Part shown: positions 2,842-37,624 of the stretch, one piece after another
Numbering within the stretch: position 1 is the first letter of the stretch
Layout of the letters: each line of letters starts with the position of its first letter
IMG/VR virus record: IMGVR_UViG_3300034122_000469
Span: 1-37,624 of that record
DNA from: a virus
Length of the DNA: 37,624 nt
Reading direction: 5' to 3' (one strand)
Made by a program: the position numbers and the translations under genes
The notes under the pieces: generated by a model
Databases searched by the model: none
What the model was told of the DNA's origin: nothing
What the model saw: the letters and a program-made list of their open reading frames with translations, nothing else

Positions 2842-4290
2842 GTGGGACTGCTAGGCAACCTGTTCTCTCGTGGCAACAGGCCGCAGCCGGCGGCGGTGCC
2901 CGTGCGTGTCCGTGCAAAGTTCGACGCTGCCGAGAGCCAAGACGACCGGCGGCACTGGGCAAACGCTGACGCCTTCGCTGCGGATGCGGCACTCTCGCCG
3001 ATGAAGCGGCGCGAGATGCGGAACCGTGCTCGCTACGAGCGTGCCAATAACTCGTGGCTCGCTGGCATCTCGTCCACGCTCGCCAATGACTTGGTCGGCA
3101 CAGGCCCGCGTCTTCAGTTGCAGTTTGGCGACGACGAAAGCGCACGTGCAATCGAAAAGCTGTTCTTCGACTGGGGCTGGCAGATCGACCTTCCGGCGAA
3201 GCTGCGGACGATGCGAGAGGCTTTGGTCGTGGACGGCGAAGCGTTCTCGCTGATGATTTCCAATCCTCGCCTGCCTGGCGTTCAGCTTGACCTGCGGCTT
3301 GTGGAAGCCGAGATGGTCGCCACGCCTACGGAACTGATGAGCGAGACGATCACGCCAGACGGCTCGACTGTTGACGGCATGGAGTTTGACTCCGTCGGCA
3401 ACGTCGTTGCCTACCAAGTTCTCAACTTCCATCCCGGCAGCAATTTCCGCGTCAACACTTTGCAATTCCAGCGCGTGCCTGCTGCCCAGATGGTGCATTG
3501 GTTCCGGCCTATCCGGCCCGGTCAACACCGTGGGTATCCAGAGGTGGCACCGGCTCTGAGGTTGTTTGGTCAGCTTCGCCGCTACACCGAGGCGGTTGTG
3601 GCTGCGGCTGAGACTGCCGCCGACTTCGCGGGCTTCCTGCGGACGAACTCGCCTGCCGCCGAGATTGACGAGGTCGAAGCGTTCGCCGAGATGCCGATTG
3701 AGAAGCGCACGATGGTCACGCTGCCAGACGGCTGGACGTTCGAGCAGCTGAAGGCAGAGCAGCCTACGACGCAGTTCCCGTCGTTCGTGCGTCAGATTCT
3801 CGGCGAGCTGGGGCGCTGCATGAATCTGCCGTTCAACGTCTGTGCTCTCGACTCGTCGTCATACAACTATGCGAGCGGTCGCATGGACCACCAAATCTAC
3901 GCGACGACTCAGCGGGTCATGCGTGACGATCTTGAGCGTGTGATGCTCGACCGTCTGCTTGCGGCTTGGGTCAACGAAGCCACGCTTGCGGGTGTGCTGC
4001 CGGAAGGCGTGCCGCCGTTCAGCGAGTGGGATTGGTCGTGGCAGTGGGATGGCAAAGAGCACGTTGACCCATCCAAGGAAGCAAACGCTGCCGAGACTCG
4101 GCTGCGGACGCACACGACCACGCTGGCGGCTGAGTACGCCAAGGCTGGCAAGCAGTGGGATGTCGAACTGCGTCAGCGTGCCGCCGAGGTGGCGATGATG
4201 AAGGAACTCAACCTATTCGTTGATTTCACGCCGGAAACGAATTACGGCGGGACGCTCGACGAGAACGGCGAACCAATGGGGGCGCGATGA
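2842..4290 (+). CDS. Portal protein (lambda gpB family)
   Basis: The portal forms the dodecameric ring at the capsid vertex through which DNA is packaged and released. The N-terminus has the typical series RAKFDAAESQDDRRHWANAD, then NRARYERANNSWLAGI and TLANDLVGTGPRLQ, which marks the lambda-type phage_portal_2 family. The 482-residue length is normal. The GTG at 2842 is chosen because it lies one base after the stop of the previous gene and gives the usual N-terminus beginning MGLLGNLFSR; a longer reading to 2734 would overlap the preceding gene by over 100 bases. The stop overlaps the next ATG (ATGA at 4287), indicating coupled translation. Confidence 0.95.
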   Translation: MGLLGNLFSRGNRPQPAAVPVRVRAKFDAAESQDDRRHWANADAFAADAALSPMKRREMRNRARYERANNSWLAGISSTLANDLVGTGPRLQLQFGDDESARAIEKLFFDWGWQIDLPAKLRTMREALVVDGEAFSLMISNPRLPGVQLDLRLVEAEMVATPTELMSETITPDGSTVDGMEFDSVGNVVAYQVLNFHPGSNFRVNTLQFQRVPAAQMVHWFRPIRPGQHRGYPEVAPALRLFGQLRRYTEAVVAAAETAADFAGFLRTNSPAAEIDEVEAFAEMPIEKRTMVTLPDGWTFEQLKAEQPTTQFPSFVRQILGELGRCMNLPFNVCALDSSSYNYASGRMDHQIYATTQRVMRDDLERVMLDRLLAAWVNEATLAGVLPEGVPPFSEWDWSWQWDGKEHVDPSKEANAAETRLRTHTTTLAAEYAKAGKQWDVELRQRAAEVAMMKELNLFVDFTPETNYGGTLDENGEPMGAR

Positions 4291-6119
4291 ACGCAATCAA
4301 GTTGGATTCTGGCGTCACGTTTCTGCAAGCCGCCGACGGCGATTCGGCACCGGCTGGCAAGAAGTTTCGCATCGTCGCCTACACGGGTGCTCCTATCCGT
4401 CAGGGCTGGAGCCGTGAGCCGGTCGTGATCGACATGGCTGGCATGCAGCTGCCGGCGACTGTGCCGGTTGTCGTCGGTCACGACTACGCACTTGGCTCCA
4501 TCGTCGGGCAGGGTCGCCCGTTTATCGAAGCCGGGCAGATCATCGTTGAAGGCGAGATCCTGGCCGACAACGAGAACGCACGGCAGGTCGCCGCTCTTGG
4601 TGCCGCTGGCTACCAGTTCCAAGCGAGCGTAGGTGCCGATGTTCGCAGGCACCAGAAGATCGACGCCGAAGGCGTCACCACCGTCAACGGCACTGCCCAT
4701 ATCGGGCCAGTGCGAGTCGTCAAAGCCTCATCGCTGCGTGAGGTTTCGTTCGTCACCTTGGGCGCTGATGCAGCTACCAGCGTCGCCATTGCCGCCGAAG
4801 AGGTGGCAGAGGAGTCAGTCATGGCGGACCACGCCAGCGAGAAGCCTGCCGACGTCGTCGAGACGCCGGTGGAAGTCACGGCGAGCGTCGCCGTGGTGGC
4901 CGAGAACGAAGTCAAGCAGGACGCCAACGAGGCTCTCCTGGCTCGGCTCGCAACCTACGAAAAGAAAGTTTCCGACATGGAAAAGCTGATCGCCACCCGC
5001 GACGAGCGTCCTGCGGCTCCTGCCGTTCACATGGCGCAGCCGACCGCTCGCACGCCCGAAGTCATCGAGGCAGCGTTCGCCCTCCAAGGCGGCCTGCCGA
5101 ATGTCGAGAAGCAGTACGACGCCAAGACCCTCGAAGCCGCTGGCAAGATCCAGCGGACCACGAGCCTCGGCGAAGTGCTGCTCTCGGCTGCTGAGGAAGG
5201 CGGCTACGTCGGTCCTCGCCGTGTGTCGGCTGCAACGCTGCGTCCGATCCTCGCTGCTGCGTGGGCGACCCACAGCATCAGCGGCATCCTGTCGAGCACC
5301 GTGAACAAGTTCCTCCTCGCTGGCTTCAACGGCGTTGAGAGCTCGTGGCGGTCGATCTCGTCTGTGCGAAGCGTGAACGATTTCCGCAGTGTCACGAGCT
5401 ACCGGCTCAACGGCGGGATGAAGTTCCAGAAGGTCGCCAACGGCGGCGAGATCAAGAACTCTGGCTTCAGCGATGAGAGCCGGACGATCTCGGCGGAGAC
5501 CTACGGCATCATGACCAGCGTCACTCGCACTGACCTGATCAACGATGACCTCGGTGCCCTGACTGCCGCGCCTCAGCGGTTGGGTCGTGGCGGCGCTCTT
5601 GCTCTGAACGATCTGTTCTGGGCTTCGTTCCAAGACGATTCGACGTTCTTCACCACGGGTCGTGGCAACAAGAAGAACACCGCCGGTGCTCTCTCCCTCG
5701 CGAACCTCAAGGCCATTGCCACGATGTTCCGCAAGCTGAAAGACCCGGACGGCAACCCGGTTGCTGTCGATCCCCGCGTGCTGCTCGTTCCGGCTGATCT
5801 GGAACTCGCTGCGGCTGAGATCATGGGCTCGTCGCTCTTGGTCGGCGGTTCGTCCGCTGCCCCGGATCGCAACGTGCTCGCCGGTCGGTATCAGGTCGTC
5901 TCGACAAGCTACCTGTCGAGTGCCGAGGACTACTACCTGCTTGCGTCTCCGGCTGATCTGCCGGTGATGGAAGTGGCTTTCCTCAACGGCGTCCAGTCCC
6001 CCATCGTTGAGACGGCGGAAGCCAATTTCAACGTCTTGGGTGTCGAGATGCGGGGTTACTTCGACGTAGGTGTGGCGAAGGCCGAATACCTCGCCGGCGT
6101 GAAGGCTGACGCTTCGTGA
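4287..6119 (+). CDS. Prohead protease / scaffold / major capsid polyprotein
   Basis: One 610-residue polypeptide appears to hold three functions. Residues about 25-170 look like a prohead protease: VVVGHDYALGSIVG with candidate catalytic H65, YQFQASVGAD with candidate S114, then SLREVSFVTLGAD. Residues about 170-250 are charged, with a coiled-coil-like run from 210 to 237, resembling a scaffolding (delta) domain. Residues 255-610 are an HK97-fold major capsid protein, with NDLFWASFQDD and a C-terminal MEVAFLNGVQSPIVE. The protease would cut itself and the linker away during head maturation. Protease-capsid fusions are known in other phages. The long linker and single frame are intact, with no frameshift. 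Confidence 0.92.
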   Translation: MNAIKLDSGVTFLQAADGDSAPAGKKFRIVAYTGAPIRQGWSREPVVIDMAGMQLPATVPVVVGHDYALGSIVGQGRPFIEAGQIIVEGEILADNENARQVAALGAAGYQFQASVGADVRRHQKIDAEGVTTVNGTAHIGPVRVVKASSLREVSFVTLGADAATSVAIAAEEVAEESVMADHASEKPADVVETPVEVTASVAVVAENEVKQDANEALLARLATYEKKVSDMEKLIATRDERPAAPAVHMAQPTARTPEVIEAAFALQGGLPNVEKQYDAKTLEAAGKIQRTTSLGEVLLSAAEEGGYVGPRRVSAATLRPILAAAWATHSISGILSSTVNKFLLAGFNGVESSWRSISSVRSVNDFRSVTSYRLNGGMKFQKVANGGEIKNSGFSDESRTISAETYGIMTSVTRTDLINDDLGALTAAPQRLGRGGALALNDLFWASFQDDSTFFTTGRGNKKNTAGALSLANLKAIATMFRKLKDPDGNPVAVDPRVLLVPADLELAAAEIMGSSLLVGGSSAAPDRNVLAGRYQVVSTSYLSSAEDYYLLASPADLPVMEVAFLNGVQSPIVETAEANFNVLGVEMRGYFDVGVAKAEYLAGVKADAS

Positions 6120-33472: not shown

Positions 33473-33634
33473 CGACCGGCACGCCATTGCCGTAGGTGCT
33501 GCGATCCAAGGCACCATTGGCCGCCCAGCGGATCGGTGGCGAGTAACTGCCGCAGCTGCGGCCCGACTCCAACGGGTAACGCAGCCGGGATGCCCCACGA
33601 GACGGGGCCAATACACAACAGGAAAGGGTTCCCA

Positions 33635-35092
33635 GTGCAGATTTATCTTGACGACACGATTGACTCATACCGCAAGTTCCTCCGCATCAAGTCGCTTCCG
33701 CGATACGAGATTCACGGCAGGATGGCGTGGTTCCCTGACGAGTACGCAGGCGACATCGGCGTTAAGGCGAAGAAGGCAAAGACGTCAGCCTACGAGCCTC
33801 GGCCTGGCCTGTTTGACTACCAACGCGACATCGTCCGCACGGCAGTAGAGAAGAAGCGATACGCCATCTTCGCTGACTGCGGGCTTGGCAAGACGCTGAT
33901 GCTGTTGGAGTTCGCTCGGCACGTCCGCGAGGCGTGCCCGAAAAAGCCGGTGCTGATTGTGTCGCCGCTCATGGTGGTGGCACAGACGATTGCCGAGGCT
34001 CAGAAGTTTTACGGCGACACGCTGCCCATCGAGCAGGTAGCCGCCAAGGATCTCGCCAAGTGGATGAAGAAGCCCGGCGGGCGTCTCGGCATCACGAACT
34101 ACGACGCACTGCGTGACGACACGCCAGACGGCAACCTCGGCGGGCTCATCCTCGACGAGTCGTCGATGCTCAAGAGTCACTACGGCAAATGGGGCCAGGT
34201 GTGCCTACGCATCGGGGCAGGCGTGGAATGGAAGCTGGCACTGACTGGCACGCCGGCACCCAATGACCGCATTGAGTACGCGAATCACGCCGTGTTTCTG
34301 GACGCCTTCCCAAACGTCAATTCGTTCCTCGCGAAGTTCTTCATCAATCGCGGGCAGACGATGGAACGATGGGAACTCAAGCCGCACGCACTGAGGCCGT
34401 TCTACAAGGCACTGTCTCACTGGTGCATCTTTCTAACTGACCCGAGCACCTACGGCTGGGCCGACAACGTCCACAACATCCCGCCCATTCACGTCCACAT
34501 TGACGACGTGCGGCTTTCTGCCGAGCAGGACAAAGCAGTTCAAGCCATCACCGGGCAGCTGTTTGTCACGCAACTCGGCGGCATTACCACCAGGGCGAAG
34601 CTCTCGCGTATGGCGAAGTGCGAAAGCAGCATCAAGCCACAGTACATCGTTGACATGGTGCGAGAGTGGCCGACTGAAAGCACCATCATCTGGTGCCGCT
34701 ACAACGACGAGCAGGACATGCTCGCCGCGATGATGCCGGATGCTGCGAGCATCGACGGCAAGACGCCACAGGACGAACGCCAGCGGCTCGTTGACGAGTT
34801 CAAGGCTGGACGAATCAAGGTGCTCATCACCAAGCCGAAGATTCTCGGCTTCGGACTCAATCTGCAAATCTGCACGCGGCAAGTGTTCAGCGGATTGCAG
34901 GACTCCTACGAGGAGTATTACCAGGCTGTTAAGCGTTCCAACCGAGTTGGATCAACTCGCCCGCTGAACGTGCATATCCCAGTGACCGACATCGAACGCC
35001 CGATGGTTGAGAACGTGCTGCGTAAGGCACGTCGCGTCGAGGCCGACACCCGAGAGCAGGAGGAAATGTTTCATGAATCTTCTACCAACTGA
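33635..35092 (+). CDS. SNF2-type DEAD/DEAH helicase
   Basis: The 485-residue protein has the helicase motifs in order: Q-like DYQRDIVRTA, Walker A DCGLGKT (81-87), motif II LILDESSM (DESS in place of DEAH, 174-177), motif III LALTGTPAPND (about 202-211), and motif VI QAVKRSNRVGS near 430. It would use ATP to move along or remodel double-stranded DNA, perhaps at replication forks. GTG 33635 is chosen for GGAAAGGG just before it; a GTG at 33536 would add 33 residues without family features. It overlaps the methyltransferase gene by 20 bases. Confidence 0.9.
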   Translation: MQIYLDDTIDSYRKFLRIKSLPRYEIHGRMAWFPDEYAGDIGVKAKKAKTSAYEPRPGLFDYQRDIVRTAVEKKRYAIFADCGLGKTLMLLEFARHVREACPKKPVLIVSPLMVVAQTIAEAQKFYGDTLPIEQVAAKDLAKWMKKPGGRLGITNYDALRDDTPDGNLGGLILDESSMLKSHYGKWGQVCLRIGAGVEWKLALTGTPAPNDRIEYANHAVFLDAFPNVNSFLAKFFINRGQTMERWELKPHALRPFYKALSHWCIFLTDPSTYGWADNVHNIPPIHVHIDDVRLSAEQDKAVQAITGQLFVTQLGGITTRAKLSRMAKCESSIKPQYIVDMVREWPTESTIIWCRYNDEQDMLAAMMPDAASIDGKTPQDERQRLVDEFKAGRIKVLITKPKILGFGLNLQICTRQVFSGLQDSYEEYYQAVKRSNRVGSTRPLNVHIPVTDIERPMVENVLRKARRVEADTREQEEMFHESSTN

Positions 35093-35969
35093 CCAGAAGT
35101 ACGCCGTTCATCATGGCGACTGCATCCCGCACATGCTGGAAGAAATGCCGCCGCATTCGGTGGATTTCTCTGTCTTCTCGCCGCCGTTCCCGAGCCTGTT
35201 CTCGTACACCTCGAAGGCCGAGGACATCGGCAACAGCGAGAACATGAAAGGCGAAGCCAAGATACACCTGTCTTACTTCTTTCGCGGGCTGGCCCGCGTG
35301 CTGAAGCCTGGCCGGGCTGTCGTCGTCCACGTCATGCAGATCCCGAGGCTCAAGCGTTCCGGCGAAGTCGGCCTGCACGACTACCGTGGACTCAACATCC
35401 GCCTCGGCGAGCGTGCCGGGCTCGTCTACGAATATGACTGGGTGGTGCGGAAGAATCCGCAGGCACAGGCAATACGCACCCGCAGCCGTGAGTTGCAGTT
35501 CGCTGGCTTGGAGAGCGACAGGGCGAAGCAGCGTGGATGCCTGCCCGACTACCTCATCAAGTTCCGTGCGCCGGGCGAGAACGAAGTAGCCATCGACTCC
35601 GATGGCGACGTTTCACGCAACGAGTGGATTGACTGGGCTGAATGCTGCTGGAGCGACATCCGCGAGACAAACACGCTGAACGTCAAAGAGGCACGCAGCG
35701 AAGAGGACACGAAGCACATCTGCCCGCTTCAGCTGGATGTCATTGACAGGCTCGTCAGGCTGTACAGCAATCCCGGTGAGGTGGTGTTCTCGCCGTTCAC
35801 CGGCATAGGCAGCGAGGGATACGTGTCGCTGCAGCAAGGCCGCCGCTTCTACGGCTGCGAACTGAAGCCCGAGTACCACGCTCAGGCATTGAAGAATCTG
35901 GCGAAGGCAGAGCGGACGCACCAGGCGAACAGCAGGACGCTGTTTGATGCACCGGAGGCTGTTGCATGA
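35073..35969 (+). CDS. DNA (N4/N6) methyltransferase
   Basis: The 298-residue enzyme has catalytic motif IV as S36-P-P-F39 in VFSPPFPS and the SAM-binding motif I as FSPFTGIGSEGY near 239-250, in the order IV then I of the beta class. S-P-P-F/Y is common among N4-cytosine enzymes but does not exclude N6-adenine. AGGAGGA lies eight bases before the ATG. No restriction partner is next to it other than a small HNH gene, so self-protection or regulation is likely. Tight overlap with the helicase suggests the two work together. Confidence 0.9.
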   Translation: MNLLPTDQKYAVHHGDCIPHMLEEMPPHSVDFSVFSPPFPSLFSYTSKAEDIGNSENMKGEAKIHLSYFFRGLARVLKPGRAVVVHVMQIPRLKRSGEVGLHDYRGLNIRLGERAGLVYEYDWVVRKNPQAQAIRTRSRELQFAGLESDRAKQRGCLPDYLIKFRAPGENEVAIDSDGDVSRNEWIDWAECCWSDIRETNTLNVKEARSEEDTKHICPLQLDVIDRLVRLYSNPGEVVFSPFTGIGSEGYVSLQQGRRFYGCELKPEYHAQALKNLAKAERTHQANSRTLFDAPEAVA

Positions 35970-36277
35970 CCCGCCCCCACTACATCACGCCAGACATCGA
36001 AGACACGCTGCCGCTGTTTCGCCGCACCGATCCGGTGACGAGCAAGGCCGCAGCCGCAAGCGTCAAGACGTTCCAGGGCGAGCACCACGCGGCGATCCTT
36101 GAGTCGCTGTCGCACGGCCCAGCCGGGGCGTCAGGCATCGCTGCTCGATGTGGGCTGCTGGGGCACCAAGTCAACAAGCGACTCGGTGAGCTTGCACGGG
36201 CTGGGAGGATCGTTGAGACGGGACGGCTTGTGGCGAGTGCGAGTGGACGGGGCGAGAGGGAATGGAGGGTGGCATGA
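35966..36277 (+). CDS. Winged-helix DNA-binding protein
   Basis: The 103-residue protein has DPVTSKAAAASVKTFQGEHH followed by ILESLSHGPAGASGIAARCG, LLGHQVNKRLGELARAGRIV and a wing ending REWRVA. This is a typical phage winged-helix plan with the D-P-x-T-S-x-x-A-A opening. It is coupled to the methyltransferase by ATGA and to the HNH gene in the same way. It may regulate early genes or act at the replication origin; the target is unknown. Confidence 0.75.
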   Translation: MTRPHYITPDIEDTLPLFRRTDPVTSKAAAASVKTFQGEHHAAILESLSHGPAGASGIAARCGLLGHQVNKRLGELARAGRIVETGRLVASASGRGEREWRVA

Positions 36278-36681
36278 GGCCGCACGAACAGAACTACGAG
36301 AGATACATCGGAAGCCACGCCTGGTTGTGCAAGCGGCAGGAGCGGCTTGAGATTGACGGCCACCAGTGCCAGACGTGCCTTCACGACGGATCACTGTGGA
36401 GGCTTGAAGTGCATCACAAAACATACGAACGCTTTATGAAAGAGGACGTGCAACGCGACTTGATAACGCTTTGCTGTCAGTGCCACGAAGCGGTCACGAG
36501 CGTAATCCGGTTCCGTCGTTACGACGGTCAGCCGGTAACTGTTGGTTGTGTTTCTAAAGGGTTTACATCACGAAAGGATGTGTTCTATGGCTTGGAAGAC
36601 GTTGACGTATCGGATCACAGGCGACGCGCCTCTGATCATGCACAATGGAGCTCTCGCAAACCCGCTGTCCGCTGCCTCTAA
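36274..36681 (+). CDS. HNH endonuclease
   Basis: The 135-residue protein has C32-x-x-C35, LEVHHKTYERF with H47-H48, and DLITLCCQCHE with C67-x-x-C70-H71: the zinc-ribbon and beta-beta-alpha metal HNH layout. An Asp replaces the usual Asn before L-I-x-L-C. Here it sits in the early operon rather than beside terminase, so it may serve recombination or DNA degradation. Its last 95 bases overlap the next gene, and the C-terminal ~40 residues look unstructured. Confidence 0.85.
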   Translation: MRPHEQNYERYIGSHAWLCKRQERLEIDGHQCQTCLHDGSLWRLEVHHKTYERFMKEDVQRDLITLCCQCHEAVTSVIRFRRYDGQPVTVGCVSKGFTSRKDVFYGLEDVDVSDHRRRASDHAQWSSRKPAVRCL

Positions 36682-37210
36682 GCAGCTGAAGCAGGTGACG
36701 TCCAAGAAGAAGAAGACCGACGCCGATTTTGAGCGCATGGCCGAGATCGAGTTCAAGGCCGGCCTGTACATGGACGAGGACAGCGGGCCTGTTATCCCAG
36801 GCGAGAACATCGAGGCCACGCTGTACTCGGCCGCCAAGATCACCAAGGAAGGCAAGATCGCCAAGTCGGCGTGTTTCGTTCCAAAGCACGCCGTGCTCTT
36901 GTACGACGGCCCGCGCGACGCTGACGGCCTGTGGCAGGAAGAAGAGTTCCGCAACTGCGTCGGCGTCAAGGTCGGCATGAGTCGCATCATGCGTACTCGC
37001 CCGATCTTCAAGGACTGGTCGGCAGTCATCGAGGTCGAGTACGAGGACTCCGTCGTCAATGAGGAGCAGGTCGACCGCTGGGTCAACTCTGCTGGCACGC
37101 AGGTCGGTCTGTGCGATTGGCGTCCTCGCTGTGGTCGGTTTACTGCCGAGAAGGTCGAGAACGTCACGATCAAGAAGGCTCGCCGTGAGCGAGAGACTGT
37201 CGGTGCGTAA
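36587..37210 (+). CDS. Phage early protein, possible RAMP/RRM-like fold
   Basis: The 207-residue protein opens with WKTLTYRITGDAPLIMHNGA, then SKKKKTDADFERMAEIEFKA, SGPVIPGENIEATLYSAAK, and closes with QVGLCDWRPRCGRFTAEKV. IPG-x-x-I-x-x-x-L-x-x-A-A is like the IPGSSIKG loop of RAMP (Cas7-type) proteins, and the G-x-x-W-R-P-x-x-G-R-F end is like their glycine-rich closing part. If so it may bind single-stranded nucleic acid. No CRISPR array or other cas gene is present. AAAGGATG lies before the ATG at 36587. The fold call is tentative; that the gene is real is near certain. Confidence 0.5.
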   Translation: MAWKTLTYRITGDAPLIMHNGALANPLSAASKQLKQVTSKKKKTDADFERMAEIEFKAGLYMDEDSGPVIPGENIEATLYSAAKITKEGKIAKSACFVPKHAVLLYDGPRDADGLWQEEEFRNCVGVKVGMSRIMRTRPIFKDWSAVIEVEYEDSVVNEEQVDRWVNSAGTQVGLCDWRPRCGRFTAEKVENVTIKKARRERETVGA

Positions 37211-37230
37211 CAAGCAAACGAATCTTGCCT

Positions 37231-37440
37231 GGGTTGTGGAATGGCCGGTTCCGGTCGGTCAGGATGCGGCTCGGCAGGGCATGTCCAGGCTTGTCATGCT
37301 TGGGCAAGGAACCACTCTCGTGATAGGCACGGCAGCACCTTCGACGGTGCGGAGTGGGATTGAATTAGGGTCAGGCATGGCGAGCCTTGTTGAGATGCGG
37401 CGAGATATGACTTGGTCTGTTCTGGCGGTGTTTGTCATGG
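37231..37440 (+). repeat. Degenerate five-base periodic tract
   Basis: From 37231 to 37310 all 16 successive pentamers have G in the third position and mostly G/T then C/T after it (for example ATGGC, GCGGC, TCGGC, AGGGC, ATGTC, CAGGC, TTGTC). From 37371 to 37440 13 of 14 pentamers have G in the fourth position (TCAGG, CATGG, CGAGC, TATGA and so on). The middle part is less regular. A five-base period does not fit codons. The long open frame through it (GTG 37185 to 37502) is therefore probably accidental. It may be an RNA, an origin-type or a DNA-structure element. Confidence 0.6.
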
Positions 37441-37515
37441 AAACCACCTGCACGGTCGGCGTGGTTGCAGCTTCGATGCTGCTAGGTGGGATTGTCTTTT
37501 GAAAGGAGGCGTAAG

Positions 37516-37624
37516 TTGACTATCAGCAAGATCACTTCGGCGAGGCAGTTGGCGAATTTCTGTTTTGCTCACATGGACGAATATCCGTTCCACGTGCAGG
37601 CCCACAAGGATGGAACTGTCTCGT
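37516..37624 (+). CDS. Partial gene cut by the window end
   Basis: A TTG start at 37516 is preceded by AAAGGAGG with six bases of spacing, the strongest ribosome site in this part. The visible 36 codons read MTISKITSARQLANFCFAHM, DEYPFHVQAHKDGTVS. The frame is open to the edge. No family can be named. It follows the five-base periodic tract and continues the early operon. Confidence 0.6.
   Translation, partial: MTISKITSARQLANFCFAHMDEYPFHVQAHKDGTVS

Follow-up and report, generated by a model that had tools for sequence, protein, structure and literature searches.

A period-five tract in an uncultivated phage and its reading as a two-unit vrRNA array of the VIPR system

What is a tract of DNA that repeats every five bases, with two bases of each unit free to vary, and that lies between two phage genes? 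The question is raised by positions 37231-37440 of IMG/VR record IMGVR_UViG_3300034122_000469, a single uncultivated virus record whose 37,624 bases were analysed at full length (hereafter the window; features are listed in Table 1). We conclude that the tract is almost certainly a two-unit vrRNA array of the phage VIPR (Viral Interference Programmable Repeat) system. According to the main text of a preprint of April 2026 (PMC13142463), VIPR is an RNA-guided, phage-borne system, proposed as the ancestor of CRISPR, that combines a small RAMP protein with vrRNAs of 9-16 pentamers carrying free NN dinucleotides and ending in a structured 3′ tail. The repeat there follows a YNNGG, GGY/NN or related consensus (some arrays being interspersed with hammerheads), and binding and GFP assays are presented for pairing through NN with one target base skipped. 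The initial annotation of the tract knew of no standard feature type with this form, a statement that the preprint overturns. Among the matches listed by a literature search, no other paper used the term vrRNA alongside VIPR or CRISPR.

The periodicity itself is real. Recounting placed G at position 3 in 16/16 pentamers of 37231-37310 and at position 4 in 13 of the 14 pentamers of 37371-37440, exactly as first claimed; in the former block position 4 is G or T, and position 5 C or T, in 14/16 units each. Judged against 1000 dinucleotide-preserving shuffles per block, period-5 power was 5.93 in the first block (shuffle mean 0.79) and 3.23 in the second (shuffle mean 0.69), above all 1000 shuffles in both cases, and the first block is the window's top 80-base stretch by this measure. 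The spectrum over 37180-37520 that had been proposed as a check was likewise significant (p=0.004). The second block keeps its periodic G but its bounds required correction to 37367-37441, where the unit is NNGKY as in the first tract. The interval between the blocks (37311-37363) is no mere gap; it is a structured element with a second copy at 37441-37492. That the first two bases vary freely proved to be the key clue, since NN would be the guide bases; in vrRNA1 they read GG GT AT CG CC CG AG GC TC AG AT CA TT AT TG AA.

An open frame of 105-147 aa spans the tract (ORF 37185-37502 or 37059-37502), and the region might therefore code for a small protein, with the period of five a by-product of composition. 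The frame is open because NNGKY pentamers seldom make stop codons, however, and the ORF has no Pfam or PHROG match, its sole protein-level matches being such arrays themselves. In relatives with 83-100% Vipr identity the region contains stops, indels and extra units, on which grounds the 147-aa ORF was rejected as a conserved protein, and no significant period 3 was found in either block taken singly. The tract had been described at the outset as non-coding in appearance, and this view held; the coding alternative is already refuted by the relatives and we give it practically no weight.

The gene directly upstream of the tract supplies the RAMP-family protein of a VIPR locus. Its product matches PDB entry 36pp, 'SUSP1 Vipr protein', the sole solved protein matched by sequence (phmmer E=1.1e-33), as well as phrog_4652, a family of unknown function (E=1.9e-57). 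In a structure model built from nine relatives (pLDDT 77), the top Foldseek matches were Csm3/Cas7 subunits (best E=3.5e-4; VIA Z of 6-7); taken by themselves such scores are middling, but they agree with the sequence match. A plain DNA search of sequenced phages returned one 67% match, confined to the vipr gene. Under the label 'hypothetical protein', vipr (phrog_4652) occurs in about 130 records of sequenced phages, most of them enterobacterial Felix O1-like phages. Among the roles initially offered, an untranslated structured RNA was right, as a tandem-repeat guide RNA adjoining the gene of a RAMP-type partner, and a protein-binding array was right in the loose sense that the guide RNA array lies beside that gene. 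No support was found for a replication or recombination element.

Homologues of the 36587 gene are followed by the same period, as the initial annotation had suggested looking for. Tracts of this kind flank vipr in nine uncultivated relatives. In eight uncultivated relatives from IMG/VR, NNGKY tracts downstream of vipr alternate with a module of ~46 bases, in arrays mostly longer than the window's and reaching about eight units. Contigs L016-L019 form a further group, in which a terminator-like hairpin comes after a single pure tract, and comparable tracts lie around vipr in SUSP1, MakoManhole, Medea1, LittleE and Trine. The window-clade consensus, NNGKY, has G at position 3 in 95% of units, G (47%) or T (37%) at position 4 and C/T at position 5 in 88%; with 16 and about 15 units, the window's tracts form vrRNA repeats of this kind, not of an NNGGY kind. 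Guides in a given slot vary freely from phage to phage, and the related contig L006 carries a near-identical vrRNA1. The window has two vrRNAs (37364-37492) where L006, whose Vipr is identical, carries about five (3775-4296) before the same downstream gene; units have been gained or lost between the two, with flanks about 95-98% identical.

If NN pairs are guide bases, they should decode to targets. We searched 1.74 Mb of DNA from related and co-occurring phages for matches to 49 clade guides and to 147 permuted guides; the target contigs are partly redundant and the permutation counts modest. When one target base was skipped after each dinucleotide, 9/49 guides beat the best of the 147 permuted guides, versus 1/49 with no skip and 0/49 with a skip of two. 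A first test on 338 kb of relatives had yielded one guide above permutations, the signal becoming general only once co-occurring phages were added. Skips that fall in a plausible reading frame are mostly on codon position 3, and guides score lower against the contig that carries them than at the foreign site.

These results bear on whether NN carries information at all. TRAP recognizes spaced triplets, and a fixed GKY separated by two free bases resembles them; the array could be an RNA decoy or protein-binding array whose pentamers are bound by Vipr or another ring- or filament-forming protein. The idea of a TRAP-like ring preceded the Vipr match and was then dropped. In vrRNAs shared between phages NN changes no more than the fifth position, as a decoy would have it, but NN decodes with a one-base skip to foreign phage genes far above permuted NN order, and with skips mostly at codon position 3, which makes a decoy extremely unlikely.

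Individual targets are consistent with the guide RNA reading. The best is that of the L011 guide, in which an unbroken run of 12 dinucleotides matches a gene whose product has a RepB-primase and a DnaB domain (peptide IMRLPGFVNWKYE). Window guide 2 matches the DnaB motif of a foreign primase-helicase gene, the same gene as L011's target (QIDFDVDNFLFG; permutation p=0.0033), and decodes to the DnaB-type helicase motif QIDFD.D.FL.G; no copy of this target gene was found in the window. The L008 guide matches the codons for MAGEWLKM at the start of the array-adjacent gene in L006's phage. The last array guides of L008 (4214-4293) and L014 (4312-4371) decode to the MAGEW... start of the gene that in related phages directly follows such arrays (L103), which suggests that VIPR phages target each other's loci. 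Within the window itself, the site matching an L006 guide has its skipped base on codon position 3; L006's own copy of this winged-helix gene is 21% diverged at the site, versus about 5% elsewhere, and matches the guide at 16/24 bases. The winged-helix motif CGLLxHQVNKR occurs in 79/80 contigs retrieved with the pattern decoded from the guide (L209-L288), and the gene of L006 and L011 has the variant HQIG(K/R)R. Guides of L009 (3890-3959), L011 (3910-3984) and L014 (3788-3867), three different phages, have the core AT-CG-CT-CC-GG in common. It decodes to (I/M)RLPG, a primase motif, and similar cores occur in guides of L010 and L012; possibly this is convergent targeting of one conserved motif.

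Several points weigh against reading the tract as a vrRNA array. Position 4 is G or T, versus the published GG. The best site of window guide 2 is imperfect (22-23 of 28-30 bases), and for window guide 1 no target is convincing (p=0.13); its matches in viral contigs (compared in 16-base stretches) and in bacterial genomes were set aside as chance because none extended over the rest of the guide. The target contigs were moreover enriched by a pattern from the L006 guide's match; since they were gathered in this way, that guide's 79 repeated matches are not independent, but the other eight guides played no part in the choice and are independent.

The structured 3′ tail expected of a vrRNA is also present, although it differs from that of SUSP1. 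Tail modules gathered by a sequence-only profile search (48 aligned, 46 distinct) share a three-way junction that both window tails adopt. In vrRNA1 the stems are P1 (37312-37317/37352-37357), P2 (CGTG/CACG) and P3 (GCACC/GGTGC), and in vrRNA2 P1 is 37444-37449/37484-37489. Across the 46 distinct tails, P1 (6 bp) and P2 (4 bp) are paired at 99.3%, with 8/10 pairs changed on both sides and covariation of 0.532 versus 0.156 in shuffles (slid controls ≤0.13); P3 occurs in two registers, with a 6- or 7-base loop. Tail types keep a fixed order along arrays (1-2-3-4-5-6-7), with some slots missing and a few repeats, and identity averages 91% for the same slot across phages versus 60% for different slots within one phage. 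The near-identical direct repeats of a CRISPR array are thus absent from within-phage comparisons of different slots, and we infer that the tails may be distinct sockets that limit recombination within the array.

Could the tail instead be a self-cleaving ribozyme that splits the units of a CRISPR-like or hammerhead-separated array? Hammerhead-interspersed VIPR arrays are reported in PMC13142463, and the tail is a three-way junction. However, the hammerhead core motifs (CUGANGA, GAAA) are absent from the aligned tails, and an Rfam search of the window and relatives found no family at gathering score, so that we regard a ribozyme as very unlikely. Permissive Rfam matches were to eukaryotic miRNA and lncRNA models and were taken as chance.

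The window-clade tail does resemble a tRNA in its acceptor-like stem, its 4-bp arm with a GG loop and its 5-bp arm with a TTCGA/ATCGA loop, but differs in having no anticodon arm. The loop GG and TC seldom vary, too seldom to probe a D-loop/T-loop contact. ARAGORN called no tRNA in the window, L006 or L011, and one doubtful tRNA-??? in Trine's tail. Among actinophages, the vrRNA tails of LittleE (L025 2147-2400 and 3643-3990), Trine (L026 3126-3351) and MakoManhole (L023 2892-3080) contain a T-arm of canonical tRNA form (GGTTCGANTCC), which an acceptor-like stem closes; this suggests tRNA-like tails and processing by tRNA enzymes.

The HNH gene overlaps the start of vipr by 95 nt and lies directly upstream of and overlapping it in 9/9 relatives tested, L016 among them, with Vipr identity as low as 56% in one relative; cleavage by this adjacent putative nuclease is possible. 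L006 has further vrRNAs beyond its counterpart of the 37516 gene. Upstream, in the same direction as the HNH gene and vipr, 33536-35966 holds SNF2/DEAD-type helicase and N4/N6 DNA methyltransferase genes, possibly a defence or counter-defence stretch. A promoter scan of the locus found no promoter-like site, and terminator candidates were not clearly above shuffles.

Table 1. Features of the VIPR locus in the window
Feature	Position	Strand	Basis
Site matching L006 guide (L006 3896-3960), in winged-helix gene 35966-36277	36145..36180	-	21/24 guide bases
HNH endonuclease gene, candidate vap (accessory) gene	36274..36681	+	Pfam HNH 8.3e-6
vipr, 207 aa, RAMP/Cas7-like Vipr protein (phrog_4652)	36587..37210	+	phmmer, PHROG, Foldseek
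vrRNA1 variable tract, 16 NNGKY pentamers	37231..37310	+	
vrRNA1 3′ tail, three-way junction, slot-1 type	37309..37360	+	
vrRNA2 variable tract, about 15 NNGKY pentamers	37367..37441	+	
vrRNA2 3′ tail, three-way junction, slot-3 type	37441..37492	+	
Downstream gene start, cut by contig end	37516..37624	+	

The closest known systems are the type II VIPRs of SUSP1 and P. fulva, which like the window's locus are phage-borne and have a RAMP protein (Vipr), vrRNAs built of tandem pentamers in which NN is free, a structured 3′ tail, and targets that lie in other phages and are read with a one-base skip at wobble positions. They differ in having GGY where we find GKY, and vap1 downstream where here an HNH gene is upstream; the three-way-junction tail here is unlike the SUSP1 tail sequence and is slot-specific in long arrays, and the targets here comprise replication genes and early regulators of uncultivated phages. 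Class 1 CRISPR-Cas systems, with their Cas7/Csm3 backbone, have in common with this locus the RAMP fold, a guide RNA with periodic unpaired bases and a variable part joined to a constant structured handle, but CRISPR guides are contiguous whereas the window's guide is pentamer-coded and has no identical repeats. Relative to the main text of PMC13142463, the junction-type tail, fixed slot order, relaxed GKY consensus, overlapping HNH gene and decoded targets given here are additional, and the tail and array features may define a VIPR variant.

By analogy with the system of PMC13142463, the array would be transcribed and its transcript cut into RNAs about 100-150 nt long, each coated along its pentamers by Vipr subunits that hold GKY and present the NN pairs. 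The complex would then bind double-stranded DNA, with NN pairing to two bases in each target triplet. The third, skipped base would lie at the codon wobble position, and synonymous changes would therefore give no escape. The expected outcome is repression of rival phage genes, namely the replication primase-helicase and the early winged-helix regulator. More tentatively, and with the odds against it, the tRNA-elbow-like tail, which has an acceptor stem, a D-like arm with the GG loop and a T-like arm but lacks an anticodon arm, might let a host tRNA 3′-processing enzyme cut the array into single guides, while fixed slot-specific sockets exchange hypervariable guides and the overlapping HNH protein turns repression into cleavage. 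Both tRNA-type processing and the slot architecture go beyond the main text of the preprint.

In conclusion, a VIPR locus could be recovered from raw sequence, and with it the one-base-skip code, from guides of uncultivated phages matched to phages outside the preprint's tested systems. The family phrog_4652 marks VIPR loci in about 130 sequenced phage records, and the tail structure and slot arrangement are directly testable. Our data suggest that VIPR phages aim at replication primase-helicases, at a conserved winged-helix regulator and at genes beside other VIPR arrays.
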